A DNA stretch of 64,000 nt from Skermania sp. ID1734 (GTDB lineage Bacteria > Actinomycetota > Actinomycetes > Mycobacteriales > Mycobacteriaceae), in the NCBI RefSeq assembly GCF_007489285.1, contig NZ_VLIY01000015.1, positions 1 through 64,000 of the forward strand, in the 5' to 3' direction. Position numbers and translations under genes: made by a program. Below, in pieces: positions 20,834 to 57,067 of this stretch. Within the stretch, counting starts at the first letter, position 1; each line of letters begins with the position of its first letter. A model generated the notes under the pieces. It was not told the DNA's origin. It did not search any database and was given only the letters and a program-made list of their open reading frames with translations.

Positions 20834-22048
20834 GTGAAGACCCTGCAGGACCTACTGAACTCCGGTGTCGAGGGTCGGGGCGTTCTCGTGCGCTCCGACC
20901 TCAATGTCCCGCTCGAGGACGGCAAAATCACCGACCCGGGTCGCATCATCGCTTCCGTTCCGACGCTGAAGGCGTTGGTCGAGGCCGGTGCCAAGGTTGT
21001 CGTCATGGCGCACTTGGGCCGGCCGAAGGGCGCCGTTGATCCGAAGTTGTCGCTGGCGCCAGTTGCGGAGCGGCTCGCCGCCGAGTTGGGACGTAATGTC
21101 CAACTCGCGGGTGACGTGGTGGGCCAGGACGCGTTGGCGCGCTCGGAGGGCCTCACCGACGGTGACGTGCTGCTCCTCGAGAACGTGCGGTTCGATCCTC
21201 GCGAAACCAGCAAAGACGACGCGGAGCGTGGCAAGCTCGCCGCCGCGCTCGTCGAATTGGTCGGCGACGACGGGGCTTTCGTCTCCGACGGCTTCGGTGT
21301 CGTGCACCGCAAGCAGGCGTCGGTCTATGACGTGGCGAAGCTGCTGCCGTCGTACTCGGGCACGCTGGTCGAGGAAGAAGTGGGCGTGCTGGCCAAGCTG
21401 ACGAGCGAGCCGGATCAGCCGTATGCCGTGGTGCTCGGCGGATCCAAGGTTTCCGACAAACTGGCCGTCATCGAGGCGCTGGCGCCGAAGGTCGACACGT
21501 TGGTCATCGGTGGCGGAATGTGCTTCACCTTCCTTGCCGCGCAAGGGCATCCGGTTGGCAATTCACTGCTGCAGGAAGAGATGATCGATACCTGCAAGGA
21601 TTTGCTCGACCGCTACGCCGACGTCATCCACGTGCCGCGCGACGTGGTGGCCGCGGACAGCTTCTCGGCCGACGCACAGGCGAAAACCGTCGATGCGCAC
21701 CAAATTCCGGACGGCTGGATGGGTCTGGACATCGGCCCGGAGTCGGCCAAGCGGTTCGGTGCGGTGCTGGGTGCGGCCAAGACGATCTTCTGGAACGGCC
21801 CGATGGGCGTGTTCGAGTTCGAGAAGTTCGCGGCCGGTACTCGTGCGGTGGCCGAGGCGATTGTGAAGGCGACCGGCAAGGGCGCGTTCAGCGTGGTCGG
21901 TGGCGGCGACTCGGCGGCCGCGGTGCGTCAGCTCGGGTTGCCCGAGGACGGGTTCTCGCACATTTCCACCGGTGGCGGGGCGTCGCTGGAGTACCTGGAG
22001 GGCAAGGAGCTGCCGGGTCTGGCGGTACTGGAGGTGAAGGGGGAGTGA
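20834..22048 (+). CDS. pgk: phosphoglycerate kinase
   Basis: The 404-aa kinase transfers phosphate from 1,3-bisphosphoglycerate to ADP. Visible signatures are [16 protein letters not shown] (substrate Arg and Asp), [32 protein letters not shown] (nucleotide side) and [17 protein letters not shown], followed by [22 protein letters not shown] 20834 follows AAGGAGCC. The last codons and stop lie inside the first unit of a 77-bp tandem repeat that fills the gap to tpiA. Confidence 0.98.
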
Positions 22049-22195
22049 GCATCGCAGCGACGAAGTCGCGAGGAGCGGAGCGAGTCCTGAACCGACCAAC
22101 GGACTCGGAGGTGAAGGGGGAGTGAGCATCGCAGCGACGAAGTCGCGAGGAGCGGAGCGAGTCCTGAACCGACCATCAAGTTCGGAGGTGAAGGG
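22031..22195 (+). repeat. 77-bp tandem duplication between pgk and tpiA
   Basis: Two consecutive 77-bp units (22031-22107 and 22108-22184) are nearly identical, and the first 11 bp of a third (GAGGTGAAGGG, 22185-22195) run up to the tpiA ATG at 22196. Each unit starts with GAGGTGAAGGG, which in the first copy encodes the end of pgk and in the last acts as the tpiA ribosome binding site. The body (GCATCGCAGCGACGAAGTCG, GAGGAGCGGAGCGAGTC) looks like a mycobacterial dispersed intergenic repeat. Confidence 0.9.
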
Positions 22196-22978
22196 ATGAG
22201 TCGTAAACCGCTCATCGCCGGCAACTGGAAGATGAACCTCAACCACCTCGAGGCCATCGCCCTGGTGCAGAAACTGGCGTTTGCGTTGCCGGAGAAGTAC
22301 TTCAGCAGGGTCGATGTCGCGGTGATTCCGCCGTTCACCGACATCCGCAGCGTGCAGACCCTCGTCGAGGGGGACAAGCTGCTGCTCACCTATGGCGCGC
22401 AGGATGTGTCGGTACACGACTCGGGTGCCTACACCGGCGAGATCAGCGGCTCCATGCTGGCCAAGCTGGGCTGCACCTTCGTAGTGGTCGGTCACTCGGA
22501 GCGGCGCCAGTATCACCACGAGGACGATGCGACGGTGCTGGCCAAGGCCAAGGCCGTGCTCAAGAACGAGATGACGCCGATCGTGTGCATCGGTGAGGGG
22601 CTTGACGTCCGCGAGTCCGGCAATCAGGTCGAGTACAACCTCGAACAGTTGCGCGGGTCGCTGAAGGGGCTGTCCGCCGAGGACATCGCCAATGTTGTCA
22701 TTGCCTACGAGCCGGTGTGGGCGATCGGCACTGGGCGGGTGGCCACGCCGCAGGACGCGCAGGAGGTGTGTGGCGCGATTCGCGAGGAGTTGGTCAAGCT
22801 CGCCGATGCCGACGTAGCGGCCGGGGTGCGGATTCTCTACGGCGGTTCGGTCAACGCGAAGAACGTCGGTGAACTGGTGGCCCAGCCGGATGTGGATGGA
22901 GCACTGGTCGGTGGGGCGTCGTTGAAGGCGGACGAGTTCGCGACCCTCTCGGCGATCGCGGCCGGAGGCCCGCTGTAG
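22196..22978 (+). CDS. tpiA: triosephosphate isomerase
   Basis: The 260-aa TIM barrel interconverts dihydroxyacetone phosphate and glyceraldehyde 3-phosphate. Active-site segments are [14 protein letters not shown] (Asn, Lys), [15 protein letters not shown] (electrophilic His) and [17 protein letters not shown] (catalytic Glu and loop 6), then [15 protein letters not shown] for phosphate binding. ATG 22196 is set by the GAGGTGAAGGG ribosome site that belongs to the upstream repeat. Its last 21 bp and the stop are copied again 55 bp downstream. Confidence 0.98.
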
Positions 22979-23043
22979 GTTCAGCGGGCTCGTAGGACGC
23001 CGATCGGGCACTGCGGCCGGAGGCCCGCTGTAGGTTCAGCGGG
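22958..23043 (+). repeat. 31-bp direct repeat copying the 3' end of tpiA
   Basis: The stretch starting GCGGCCGGAGGCCCGCTGTA at 22958-22988, which includes the tpiA stop, is repeated exactly at 23013-23043, 55 bp away. It looks like local duplication. Confidence 0.85.
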
Positions 23044-23072: not shown

Positions 23073-23215
23073 GAGATGTGCACTCACATGTGTGTACATC
23101 TCAAGCCGCCCGCCCGCCCCAGGATGTACACACACAGGTGTGTACATCTCAAGCCGCCCGCCTGCCCCAGGATGTACACACACAGGTGTGTACATCTTCA
23201 AGCCGCCAGCCCACC
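23073..23215 (+). repeat. 48-bp tandem repeats with TGTACA-type hairpins in the secG leader
   Basis: The core GTGTGTACATC occurs at 23090, 23138 and 23186, exactly 48 bp apart, with the intervening AAGCCGCCCGC-rich spacer conserved and the last unit partial. Each boundary forms a hairpin: GATGTACACAC and GTGTGTACATC around ACAG (23123-23148 and 23171-23196), and a related GAGATGT/ACATCTC pair at 23073-23102. The 340-bp interval 22979-23318 therefore contains no gene but is filled by this and the tpiA-end duplication. secG starts about 100 bp after the array. Confidence 0.9.
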
Positions 23216-23318
23216 CCGCCGTGTGTGTATACGCGTGTGGCGTGGCTCGCCGTGCTGTACCGGGTTGCCTGCCCGTGTATCGTGGGCGGGCGACGCCTGT
23301 GAGGAGATAGAAGACCCC

Positions 23319-23555
23319 GTGGAACTGTTCCTGGATATCTTGCTGGTGGTGACCAGCGTGCTGATGGTGCTGCTGGTGCTCCTGCATCGCGCTAAGGGCG
23401 GCGGTCTGTCCAGCCTCTTCGGCGGTGGCGTGCAGTCGAGCCTGTCGGGCTCCACTGTGGTGGAGAAGAACCTCGACCGGATCACTATCTTCACGTCGAT
23501 CGTCTGGCTCATCGCCATTCTCGGGATCGGTCTGGAAATCAAGCTCGGGGGCTGA
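23319..23555 (+). CDS. secG: SecYEG translocase subunit SecG
   Basis: The 78-aa membrane protein is the small auxiliary subunit of the Sec export channel. It has two membrane segments (LFLDILLVVTSVLMVLLVL and FTSIVWLIAILGIGLEI). The conserved loop HRAKGGGLSSLFGGGVQSS between them is the SecG hallmark. GTG 23319 follows GAGGAG at 23301-23306. It lies between tpiA and ppc, the usual mycobacterial position, but its leader carries an unusual repeat array. Confidence 0.95.
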   Translation: MELFLDILLVVTSVLMVLLVLLHRAKGGGLSSLFGGGVQSSLSGSTVVEKNLDRITIFTSIVWLIAILGIGLEIKLGG

Positions 23556-27208: not shown

Positions 27209-27457
27209 ATGCGGACGACCGTCAACATCGACGATGAACTGCTGACACAGGCGAAAATGCTCGCCGCACGCACGTCTCGCAGCCTTGGTGCCGTGGTCGA
27301 TGACGCGTTGCGTGTCCTGTTGAAGGCACAGAGCGTTTCCGCTGAGCAGACGGGGTGGCGGTTGCCGTCGGCGAATCTCGGCCGGTTGCAACCCGGCGTG
27401 GATTTGGAGGACAAGGAGTCGCTCGCGAACGTGTTAGGCGACAATGATCTGTCCTGA
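27209..27457 (+). CDS. vapB: VapB-family antitoxin
   Basis: The 82-aa protein begins MRTTVNIDDELLTQAKMLA, continuing ARTSRSLGAVVDDALRVLL. This is the ribbon-helix-helix DNA-binding N-terminus of VapB antitoxins, and the variable C-terminal tail (about 45 to 82) should wrap and block the toxin. ATG 27209 was preferred; ATG 27200 is also in frame. It overlaps vapC by 14 bp, as expected for coupled synthesis. Confidence 0.9.
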   Translation: MRTTVNIDDELLTQAKMLAARTSRSLGAVVDDALRVLLKAQSVSAEQTGWRLPSANLGRLQPGVDLEDKESLANVLGDNDLS

Positions 27458-27872
27458 CGTCAACGTTTTCGTGTATGCGTTGAACGAGGACAGCGCCCAT
27501 CATGCGCAGTATCGGAATTGGCTGGTGGAGGCGCTCCGTGGTGTGGAGCCGGTGGGCGTCAGCGAATTGGTTCTTGCCGGGGTTGTTCGCATCTTGACGA
27601 ACCATCGGATCTTTGAACGCCCGAGCTCAACTCAGGAGGCGCTCGACTATTGCGCGGCCATCCGGGCTGCACCTTCGGCGGTTCCGCTCCAACCCGGACC
27701 TCGGCACTGGGCGCTGTTCGCCGAACTCTGCGCCGAAACCGCGGCAAAGGGAAACATCGTCCCTGATGCCTATCACGCCGCCTTGGCAATCGAAAATGGC
27801 GCGACCTGGATCACCAACGACCGAGGATTTGCGCGATTCCCCAAACTTATGTGGCGCAAGCCATTTGACTGA
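27444..27872 (+). CDS. vapC: VapC-family PIN-domain ribonuclease toxin
   Basis: The 142-aa toxin has the four acidic PIN residues: Asp5 (MICPDVNVFVYA), Glu in GVSELVLAGVVRI (about 40), Asp in VPDAYHAALAI (about 109) and Asp in WITNDRGFARFP (about 128). PIN toxins cut RNA using Mg2+, commonly tRNA or rRNA; the target here cannot be read. All key residues are present, so it appears active. It ends 6 bp before the convergent pgl gene. Confidence 0.92.
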   Translation: MICPDVNVFVYALNEDSAHHAQYRNWLVEALRGVEPVGVSELVLAGVVRILTNHRIFERPSSTQEALDYCAAIRAAPSAVPLQPGPRHWALFAELCAETAAKGNIVPDAYHAALAIENGATWITNDRGFARFPKLMWRKPFD

Positions 27873-54181: not shown

Positions 54182-54195
54182 CCTGAGGAGTTAAG

Positions 54196-54870
54196 ATGGA
54201 AGCGCTGACGCGGGTACCGCTTTCGCAGCAGGCGGCCCAAGCACTGCTTGATGAGATCCGCAATGGTCGCTGGGAAGTGGGGGACCAGATCCCTGGTGAG
54301 CTGGCCCTCGCGGCCGAGTTGAACGTGGGGCGATCCACCATCCGGGAAGCAATCCGTCAGTTGGCTGCCCGCGGCGTGCTCAGCTCACGGCAGGGGATCG
54401 GCGTGTTCGTGTCGTCGACGACCGGGATCGACGGGTGGAATCGGCTTGCCGAGATCAGCGCCATTACCGAACTGGTCCAGGTGCGCGTGGCCATCGAGTC
54501 GCGCGCCGCCGCGCTTGCCGCAGCCTGCCACCACCGGGACGACGCAGCGCGGATCCGCCGCGCGCTGGTCGTCCGAAACGGACTCGTCACCGCGGCTCCC
54601 GCGGAACTGGCGGGCGCCGACATCCGCTTTCACCGCGAGGTTGTCCAGGCCGCGCACAACTCGCTGCTGCTTGCGCTTTTCGACAGTCTGCAGCCACGGC
54701 TTGTCGAGGCGATGACCGAATTACTCGAGTTGATGCCAGCCACCCAGCAGGACGCGGACGCGCACGCGGCGCTCGTCGAGGTGATCCTCGCCGGCGATTC
54801 CCACCGCGCCGAGGCGCTGGCGCGCGATCACCTGCTCGGTGTCGCCAACGAATTGGAGTCGCTGCCATGA
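54196..54870 (+). CDS. GntR family (FadR-type) transcriptional regulator
   Basis: Residues about 8 to 75 are a GntR winged helix (GRWEVGDQIPGELALAAEL, NVGRSTIREAIRQLAARGV, SSRQGIGVFV). Residues about 95 to 215 are an FCD effector domain (RVAIESRAAALAAACHHRD, ADIRFHREVVQAAHN, AGDSHRAEALARDHL) with metal-binding Asp/His positions typical of the class. The 224-aa protein starts after TGAGGAG. It overlaps the ABC ATPase gene by 4 bp and should control it. Confidence 0.92.
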   Translation: MEALTRVPLSQQAAQALLDEIRNGRWEVGDQIPGELALAAELNVGRSTIREAIRQLAARGVLSSRQGIGVFVSSTTGIDGWNRLAEISAITELVQVRVAIESRAAALAAACHHRDDAARIRRALVVRNGLVTAAPAELAGADIRFHREVVQAAHNSLLLALFDSLQPRLVEAMTELLELMPATQQDADAHAALVEVILAGDSHRAEALARDHLLGVANELESLP

Positions 54871-56155: not shown

Positions 56156-57067
56156 TCAGGCGCCCTTTCGGGCACGCGACGCCGACTTCTTGGCAGGCGC
56201 TTTCTTTGCGGTCGACTTGGTGCCCGATGCCTTCTTGGCTGCGGGCTTCTTGGCCGGGGCTTCCTTGGCCGTCGAATCGGTACGCCGGCCTGCGGCCTCG
56301 ACGCTGCGCTGCAGCGCCGCAACGAGATCCACCACTTCGGCGTCCTCGGTTTCCTCCTCTACCTCGGCCACCGGGATCACCTTCTTGCCACCGGAGGCGA
56401 TCGTCTCGTCGAGCATCTTCTGCAACTCGATCTGGTAGTCGTCGGTGTATTCGGAGGGTTCGAAGTCGCCGGACATGCTTTCCACAAGCGTCTCAGCCAT
56501 TTTGAGTTCCTGCGGCCGCGGCTCGGCCACCCCTTCGAGGGATTCGAACTCGGCCGCGCGAATCTCGTCCGGCCACAACAAGGTTTGCAACACCAGTACG
56601 CCGTCGCGGACCCGCAGTGCAGCCAGCCGGGTCTTCTGTCGGAGGGTAAAGTGCACCAACGCGGTCTGGTCGATCTTCTCGAGCGTCTTTGCCAGCAGCA
56701 CATAGGCTTTCGGCGTCGATGAATCCGGTTCGAGGTAATAGCTGCGCTCGAACATGATCGGGTCGATCTGTTCGGACGGAACGAACTGCAACACCGGGAT
56801 CTCGTGCTTCTCCGCGGCGGGCAGTTTGGCGAAGTCTTCGTCGGTGAGGATGACGCGCTCACCGTCGGGGGAGTCGTAGGCCCGGTCGATATCGGCGTAC
56901 TGCACCGACTTACCGCAAACGGAGCACACCCGGTCGTACTTGATGCGACCGCCGTCCTTGGCATGGACCTGGTGAAACCTGATGTCGTGGTCCTCGGTGG
57001 CGGTGTAGACCTTTACCGGGACATTGACCAGTCCGAAGGCGATGGAGCCCTTCCAAATCGACCTCAT
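56156..57067 (-). CDS. mku: DNA end-binding protein Ku
   Basis: Bacterial Ku binds double-strand break ends and recruits LigD for non-homologous end joining. The 303-aa protein has SIWKGSIAFGLVNVPVKVY, IRFHQVHAKDGGRIKYDRV, CSVCGKSV and AETLVESMSGDFEPSEYTD. Its C-terminal tail from about 265 is a lysine/alanine-rich repeat (PAKKPAAKKASGTK, AKKAPAKKSASRARKG) like the basic extension of mycobacterial Ku, which aids DNA binding. ligD is not in the window. The start overlaps the end of crtL by 4 bp. Confidence 0.95.
   Translation of the reverse strand: MRSIWKGSIAFGLVNVPVKVYTATEDHDIRFHQVHAKDGGRIKYDRVCSVCGKSVQYADIDRAYDSPDGERVILTDEDFAKLPAAEKHEIPVLQFVPSEQIDPIMFERSYYLEPDSSTPKAYVLLAKTLEKIDQTALVHFTLRQKTRLAALRVRDGVLVLQTLLWPDEIRAAEFESLEGVAEPRPQELKMAETLVESMSGDFEPSEYTDDYQIELQKMLDETIASGGKKVIPVAEVEEETEDAEVVDLVAALQRSVEAAGRRTDSTAKEAPAKKPAAKKASGTKSTAKKAPAKKSASRARKGA

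Follow-up and report, generated by a model that had tools for sequence, protein, structure and literature searches.

The tandem array located between tpi and secG in the window (the whole 64,000-nucleotide stretch of DNA analysed here) appears, on balance, somewhat likely to be a cluster of binding boxes for a ribbon-helix-helix (RHH) antitoxin of the CcdA family, encoded on contig C56, which would tune or insulate secG. The occurrence of the box in this genome and in those of relatives points to the possible conversion of a former antidote protein into a chromosomal regulator. The locus comprises the following features.

22196–22978, plus strand: tpi (triosephosphate isomerase; Pfam TIM), the upstream gene
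23075–23122, no strand: unit 1 of the 48-bp array, an imperfect palindrome and GC-rich spacer (TRF, repeat finder)
23123–23170, no strand: unit 2 of the 48-bp array, an 11-bp inverted repeat and spacer
23171–23218, no strand: unit 3 of the 48-bp array, the palindrome of unit 2 with a diverged spacer and one inserted base
23090–23098, minus strand: box TGTACACAC in unit 1
23125–23133, plus strand: box TGTACACAC, left, in unit 2
23138–23146, minus strand: box TGTACACAC, right, in unit 2
23173–23181, plus strand: box TGTACACAC, left, in unit 3
23186–23194, minus strand: box TGTACACAC, right, in unit 3
23223–23231, minus strand: box TATACACAC beyond the repeated units, 37 bp past the preceding exact box of the same strand
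23319–23555, plus strand: secG (preprotein translocase subunit; Pfam SecG; GTG start at 23319), the downstream gene

The original prediction described an array of 48-bp repeats with hairpin stems of about 11 bp, some 100 bp ahead of the SecG start, and each of these properties was recovered: TRF delineates 3.0 copies with a period of 48 at 23075–23217 (91% matches), an ungapped repeat finder places the starts of the copies at 23075, 23123 and 23171, folding yields stems of 11–12 pairs (−15.7 to −19.3 kcal/mol), and the end of the array is separated from the GTG codon of SecG by 101 bases. The prediction also rightly denied that the array was a CRISPR, because the spacers, which would be unique in a CRISPR, are themselves repeated. 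Each unit joins a 26-bp palindrome to a C-rich (GC-rich) spacer of 22 bp; copies 2 and 3 are, respectively, 92% and 71% identical to copy 1, with one base inserted in copy 3. The stem of unit 1, when extended into the flanking TTGA/TCAA, reaches 12 pairs (−19.3 kcal/mol). To this description can be added the further exact box at 23223–23231, just outside the units.

With up to three mismatches allowed, the 26-bp palindrome is found at a single place in the genome, namely the secG array, and the tpi–secG gap gave no match against phage and plasmid DNA. SecG itself is present in 149 of 151 genomes. Among the best 80 matches listed for the tpi of the host against named genomes, Nocardia is the closest (86%, vs 76–80% for Mycobacterium), and the host belongs to the wider Nocardia/Mycobacterium group, probably in a genus other than Mycobacterium. 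The surroundings contain duplications of their own: a 77-bp tandem duplication (22030–22195, 2.2 copies) covers the 3′ end of pgk and the pgk–tpi gap, and the 3′ end of tpi (22949–22988) is copied 55 bp downstream (23004–23043), with a GC-rich hairpin at or past the tpi stop codon in both copies. Many of the tpi–secG gaps listed for relatives (loci L008–L122) contain, by eye, a TAGGCT/TAGACT-type element resembling a −10 box near the start of secG.

The box TRTACACAC occurs at 36 sites in the 5.1-Mb genome, compared with 13 sites for the reversed control, and 32 of these 36 fall in ten loci, including six in the secG array; the core TGTACACAC accounts for 19 strongly clustered sites. Isolated boxes, the sequence context of which was read, are located at C1, C23, C31 and C54. 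The ten loci, with their exact boxes, the period of successive pairs and the adjacent genes, are the following.

C6, 69255–69322: 2 exact boxes; 47 bp; znuA
C7, the secG array: 6 exact boxes; 48, 48 bp; secG
C11 (C11a/C11b pair), 54185–54253: 2 exact boxes; 48 bp; marR and an MFS transporter gene, one array on each side
C11 (C11a/C11b pair), 56223–56291: 2 exact boxes; 48 bp; the same two genes
C15, 76710–76728: 1 exact box; a lone pair, flanked by a DUF3558 gene and a transposase-like frame
C24, 13433–13500: 2 exact boxes; a TylF-type methyltransferase gene and a Phd antitoxin gene
C34, 163266–163334: 1 exact box; 48 bp; a short-chain dehydrogenase gene and a gene of TfoX/YjbR-like type that does not reach its Pfam cut-offs
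C45, 135694–135809: 4 exact boxes; 47, 48 bp; a DUF732 gene
C55, 124422–124681: 9 exact boxes; 48, 48, 48, 48, 47 bp; an ECF sigma factor gene and a SnoaL-like gene
C56, 203317–203432: 3 exact boxes; 47, 48 bp; the antitoxin gene and crcB

At seven of the nine loci other than secG, direct pairs of boxes 11–12 bp apart, some of them degenerate, are repeated every 47–48 bp, and with the secG array included, this period is found at eight of the ten loci. At C24, an inverted pair is accompanied by a degenerate one at a distance of 48 bp, the only pair at C15 is inverted, and across the loci the boxes are variously arranged in direct, convergent or divergent orientation. The two-box pattern TACACACN{2,18}TACACA has 14 matches in the genome (none in the control), with a gap of 5 in 12 matches and of 4 in the remaining two, which corresponds to a spacing of 12 or 11 bp. 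These matches are distributed over eight places, one of which, a solitary pair with 11-bp spacing at C6:1589, is outside the ten-locus count; it is also the only pair spaced by 10–13 bp in approximately 549 kb of the host's own sequence, array regions excluded, which contain 31 boxes at no more than one mismatch. Relative to start codons assigned by eye, the arrays lie about 25–165 bp upstream, with the C56 array positioned over the start codon; the exception is C11b, downstream of the MFS gene, where the next gene is not clear. The marR–MFS pair is enclosed between two oppositely oriented arrays in a manner resembling the ends of a cassette (L242, 8185–8253 and 10223–10291), and the isolated inverted pair of C15 (L160, 10709–10728) is located about 0.5 kb from the contig end, in front of the transposase-like frame, which was identified by eye.

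The secG array can be viewed as a variant of a genome-wide theme: it shares exact boxes and a 48-bp period with the other arrays but differs in orientation, its boxes facing each other at distances of 16 and 32 bp between core centres, as opposed to the direct pairs, spaced by 12 and 36 bp, in the operator. Because its units are copies of one another, the six exact boxes represent few independent events.

At C56, the three-pair array overlies the gene of a small antitoxin (minus strand, 203110–203319), an RHH protein of the Pfam family CcdA (PF07362); a search for this antitoxin gave one match in the genome. The product of the adjacent toxin gene scores 22.6 bits against the PIN profile, just below the cut-off of 23.6, and that of the one relative tested lies far above it. 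Compared with five relatives, the toxin ORF stops early, with the final stretch containing the TTDQRL motif out of frame, and the DALY/DAFY motif of the relatives reads EALY; this toxin is probably inactive. Six aligned antitoxins (that of the host and those of five of six relatives) share an invariant MARLNVY, with overall identities to the host protein of 53–56%; in the RHH fold, this segment forms the strand that contacts DNA. Comparison of the antitoxin with solved structures gave nothing significant, the weak matches (E = 0.25–0.28) being two P450 sequences and the antitoxin Rv0298.

A search of other species for the core of the array, as originally proposed, retrieved from 150 relatives only matches of 23–41 bases in three genomes (with no more than five candidates per genome scored) when the array DNA was used, but identified the 12-bp pair at an antitoxin gene in six genomes of one other genus. 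Specifically, when 300 genomes of the family were scanned with the box pattern alone, the gap-5 (12-bp) pair was found, among the places listed, in nine: G206, G226, G246, G274, G344 and G350, which belong to one genus, and G182, G302 and G320. A separate protein search of the same 300 genomes with the C56 antitoxin returned close homologues (E ≤ 2e-13) in exactly the former six, all within the pair-bearing nine; the hypergeometric probability of this overlap is about 9e-11, a value that overstates the case because the six genomes are kin. In all six, the pair lies at a small antitoxin gene, overlapping its start codon; the gene product begins with MARLNVYVPD in the five where it was read, and among the places listed for these genomes the 12-bp pair occurs nowhere else, G226 having one extra pair with 11-bp spacing at another place.

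Similar box pairs mark the start codon of homologues encoded on plasmids of Pseudonocardiaceae (65–66% identity), with two mismatches of 18 in a Saccharopolyspora plasmid and four in a Pseudonocardia plasmid; at five weaker homologues in further genomes (E from 1e-5 to 3e-4), no match to the pair was better than six mismatches of 18. G182, G302 and G320 carry the pair without a close antitoxin homologue, and no antitoxin-like gene was noticed at the pair in G182 and G320. In G302, a 12-bp TGTGTA pair lies just upstream of what appears, by eye, to be the gene of a different, VapB-type antitoxin (L239, 1470–1530). Among the places listed for the 300 relatives, no comparable set of box pairs was found, so that the dispersed arrays are without support from conservation. 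When viral contigs were scanned with the pattern of the operator, a single contig was picked up, on account of an unrelated simple GTGTGTATGGCT repeat.

The palindromes at secG could also act at the RNA level, as a cluster of hairpins, multiplied by slippage, that would terminate or trim tpi transcripts and keep them apart from secG, with the likeness to the box being incidental or secondary. Hairpin clusters are reported to act in intrinsic termination (PMC8355165), and the array provides three stable stem-loops past the tpi stop codon, within a 271-nt region that folds with z = −6.7 on the plus strand (−4.5 on the minus strand). In the tpi–secG gaps of relatives (40 distinct gaps of 60–400 bases from loci with both genes, copies of the host locus set aside), the best stem surpasses at least 29 of 30 shuffles in 23 of the 40, where the shuffles preserve base composition only and some of the gaps come from close kin. 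The gap in relatives thus often holds a terminator-like hairpin, and the palindromes of the window could serve likewise. No U-rich tail is present, however, with no stem followed by a T-run between 21900 and 23700; tail-less terminators are described in actinobacteria. Rfam 15 yielded, for the same interval, 12 weak matches, mostly microRNA-like and all far below the gathering scores. Function as RNA does not, moreover, account for the recurrence of the exact box, with its period of 48 bp, at other loci, the majority of which have boxes in direct orientation without pairing between them. We regard a role of the hairpins alone as rather unlikely; RNA and protein-binding roles are nevertheless mutually compatible.

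A further reading is that of a plain minisatellite, a set of functionless slippage products of a unit that happened to carry a palindrome. Copies 1 and 2 are alike throughout, spacer included, and the duplications in the adjacent pgk–tpi gap and at the tpi 3′ end point in the same direction. Elsewhere, the spacers of C55 are repeated and units 2 and 3 of C45 share, by eye, most of their spacer (the low likeness value computed for C45 is due to an offset of one base between the units), and the compared stretches are 58% alike at C6 and 50% and 23% alike at the two steps of C56, such that old slippage may have shaped some of the other arrays. At C11a, C11b and C34, however, the stretches are only 12–19% alike and the period is nonetheless kept; in arrays of two pairs, with their single inter-pair spacer, the comparison is with the outside flank. 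The period thus does not everywhere go back to recent slippage, although old slippage may lie behind it at C6 and C56. Furthermore, the box matches the motif at the start codon in other genera. The minisatellite that the original prediction had entertained is accordingly improbable in its plain form, which does not account for the 47–48-bp step where no spacer repeat is evident, even if copies 1–3 at secG may have arisen by slippage.

Still less probable, in our view, is recognition of the boxes by some other protein with a DNA-binding or architectural function, such as a partition-like protein, for which the antitoxin gene would be just one target. The variable orientation of the boxes would fit such a protein, and an RHH partition protein likewise requires arrays of short repeats (PMC9499535), but the restriction of the 12-bp pair, among the places listed, to the antitoxin gene in the six other genomes argues against it. 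A coding role of the repeats, suggested by a unit length divisible by 3 and by an ORF that continues in frame into secG, was discounted considering that the 47-bp steps of other arrays break the frame. The window's own vapBC was likewise discounted as the source of a binder: this VapB (PF09957)–PIN pair at 27209–27872, four kb past secG, includes an RHH antitoxin (27209–27457), and no TACACAC box is present near it.

The binding of the C56 antitoxin is thus the reading that we favour for the secG array, and the protein binding envisaged in the original prediction receives good, though indirect, support from the recurrence of the box at other places in the genome, in arrays that share its period, and from its match to the antitoxin operator. 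Under this scenario, antitoxin dimers would occupy neighbouring TRTACACAC boxes and cover the DNA upstream of secG, which would then be repressed, shielded from read-through or otherwise tuned. With the adjoining toxin gene truncated, the antitoxin might now be mainly a chromosomal regulator. The array shares with the operator exact copies of the box and the 47–48-bp period; it differs in having convergent boxes instead of direct pairs 11–12 bp apart. This orientation is the main weakness of the assignment, as the array may be recognised in another manner, or may not be recognised by the antitoxin. Because the direct 12-bp pair, the geometry that defines the operator, is absent, we denote the secG array operator-like and claim no membership in the class. 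In function it would resemble a multi-site operator bound by an RHH antitoxin; a second role, at the level of RNA, is possible, in that the inverted order of the boxes may also give rise to hairpins that end tpi transcripts.

More tentatively, and with somewhat less confidence than would make it the expected outcome, the entire toxin-antitoxin module can be proposed to have been domesticated, with the toxin decayed and the antitoxin, its DNA-binding face retained, served by a newly gained chromosomal network of about ten operator-like arrays, most of them on a common 12/48-bp lattice. Such a network would bring together secG, a zinc-uptake gene, an ECF sigma factor, crcB, the marR–MFS pair and a second toxin-antitoxin pair. 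If this is the case, the box of the antitoxin would have undergone a lineage-specific spread to many promoter regions with a fixed geometry, in parallel with decay of the toxin, which would illustrate how a selfish module becomes a regulatory circuit. The box loci constitute a directly testable list of candidate targets that includes a gene of the protein-export machinery.

Several known systems resemble the secG array in part. Clustered-hairpin intrinsic terminators similarly place several hairpins soon past a stop codon (PMC8355165); in contrast, the primary sequence of the secG array is common to arrays of direct boxes that form no hairpins. ParB of plasmid pSM19035 is an RHH protein acting on an array of short repeats, but these repeats are contiguous, plasmid-borne and dedicated to partition (PMC9499535), whereas here the boxes are chromosomal with 12/36-bp spacing. 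In the titles and abstract openings of the open-access literature searched, there were no dispersed operator arrays of this kind. Action of antitoxins beyond their own operons is already known case by case. HigA2 (Rv2021c) of M. tuberculosis controls genes outside its operon through an operator motif, with sites sought as ATCAC(N)4-7GTGAT and eight of them bound (PMC11205783); periodic multi-pair arrays do not appear in the portion of the account considered here. MqsA is another antitoxin with outside targets (PMC4803016), and the Shigella VapBC complex, the antitoxin of which has a different fold, binds two operator sites in its own promoter (PMC3384007). A further parallel is with the operators of type II RHH antitoxins of the CcdA, FitA and VapB types, which share with the present case an RHH antitoxin, a PIN toxin and short boxes at the antitoxin's own gene, and from which it differs in that the box recurs at nine other loci, mostly in 47–48-bp arrays, the toxin is truncated and the boxes at secG are convergent.
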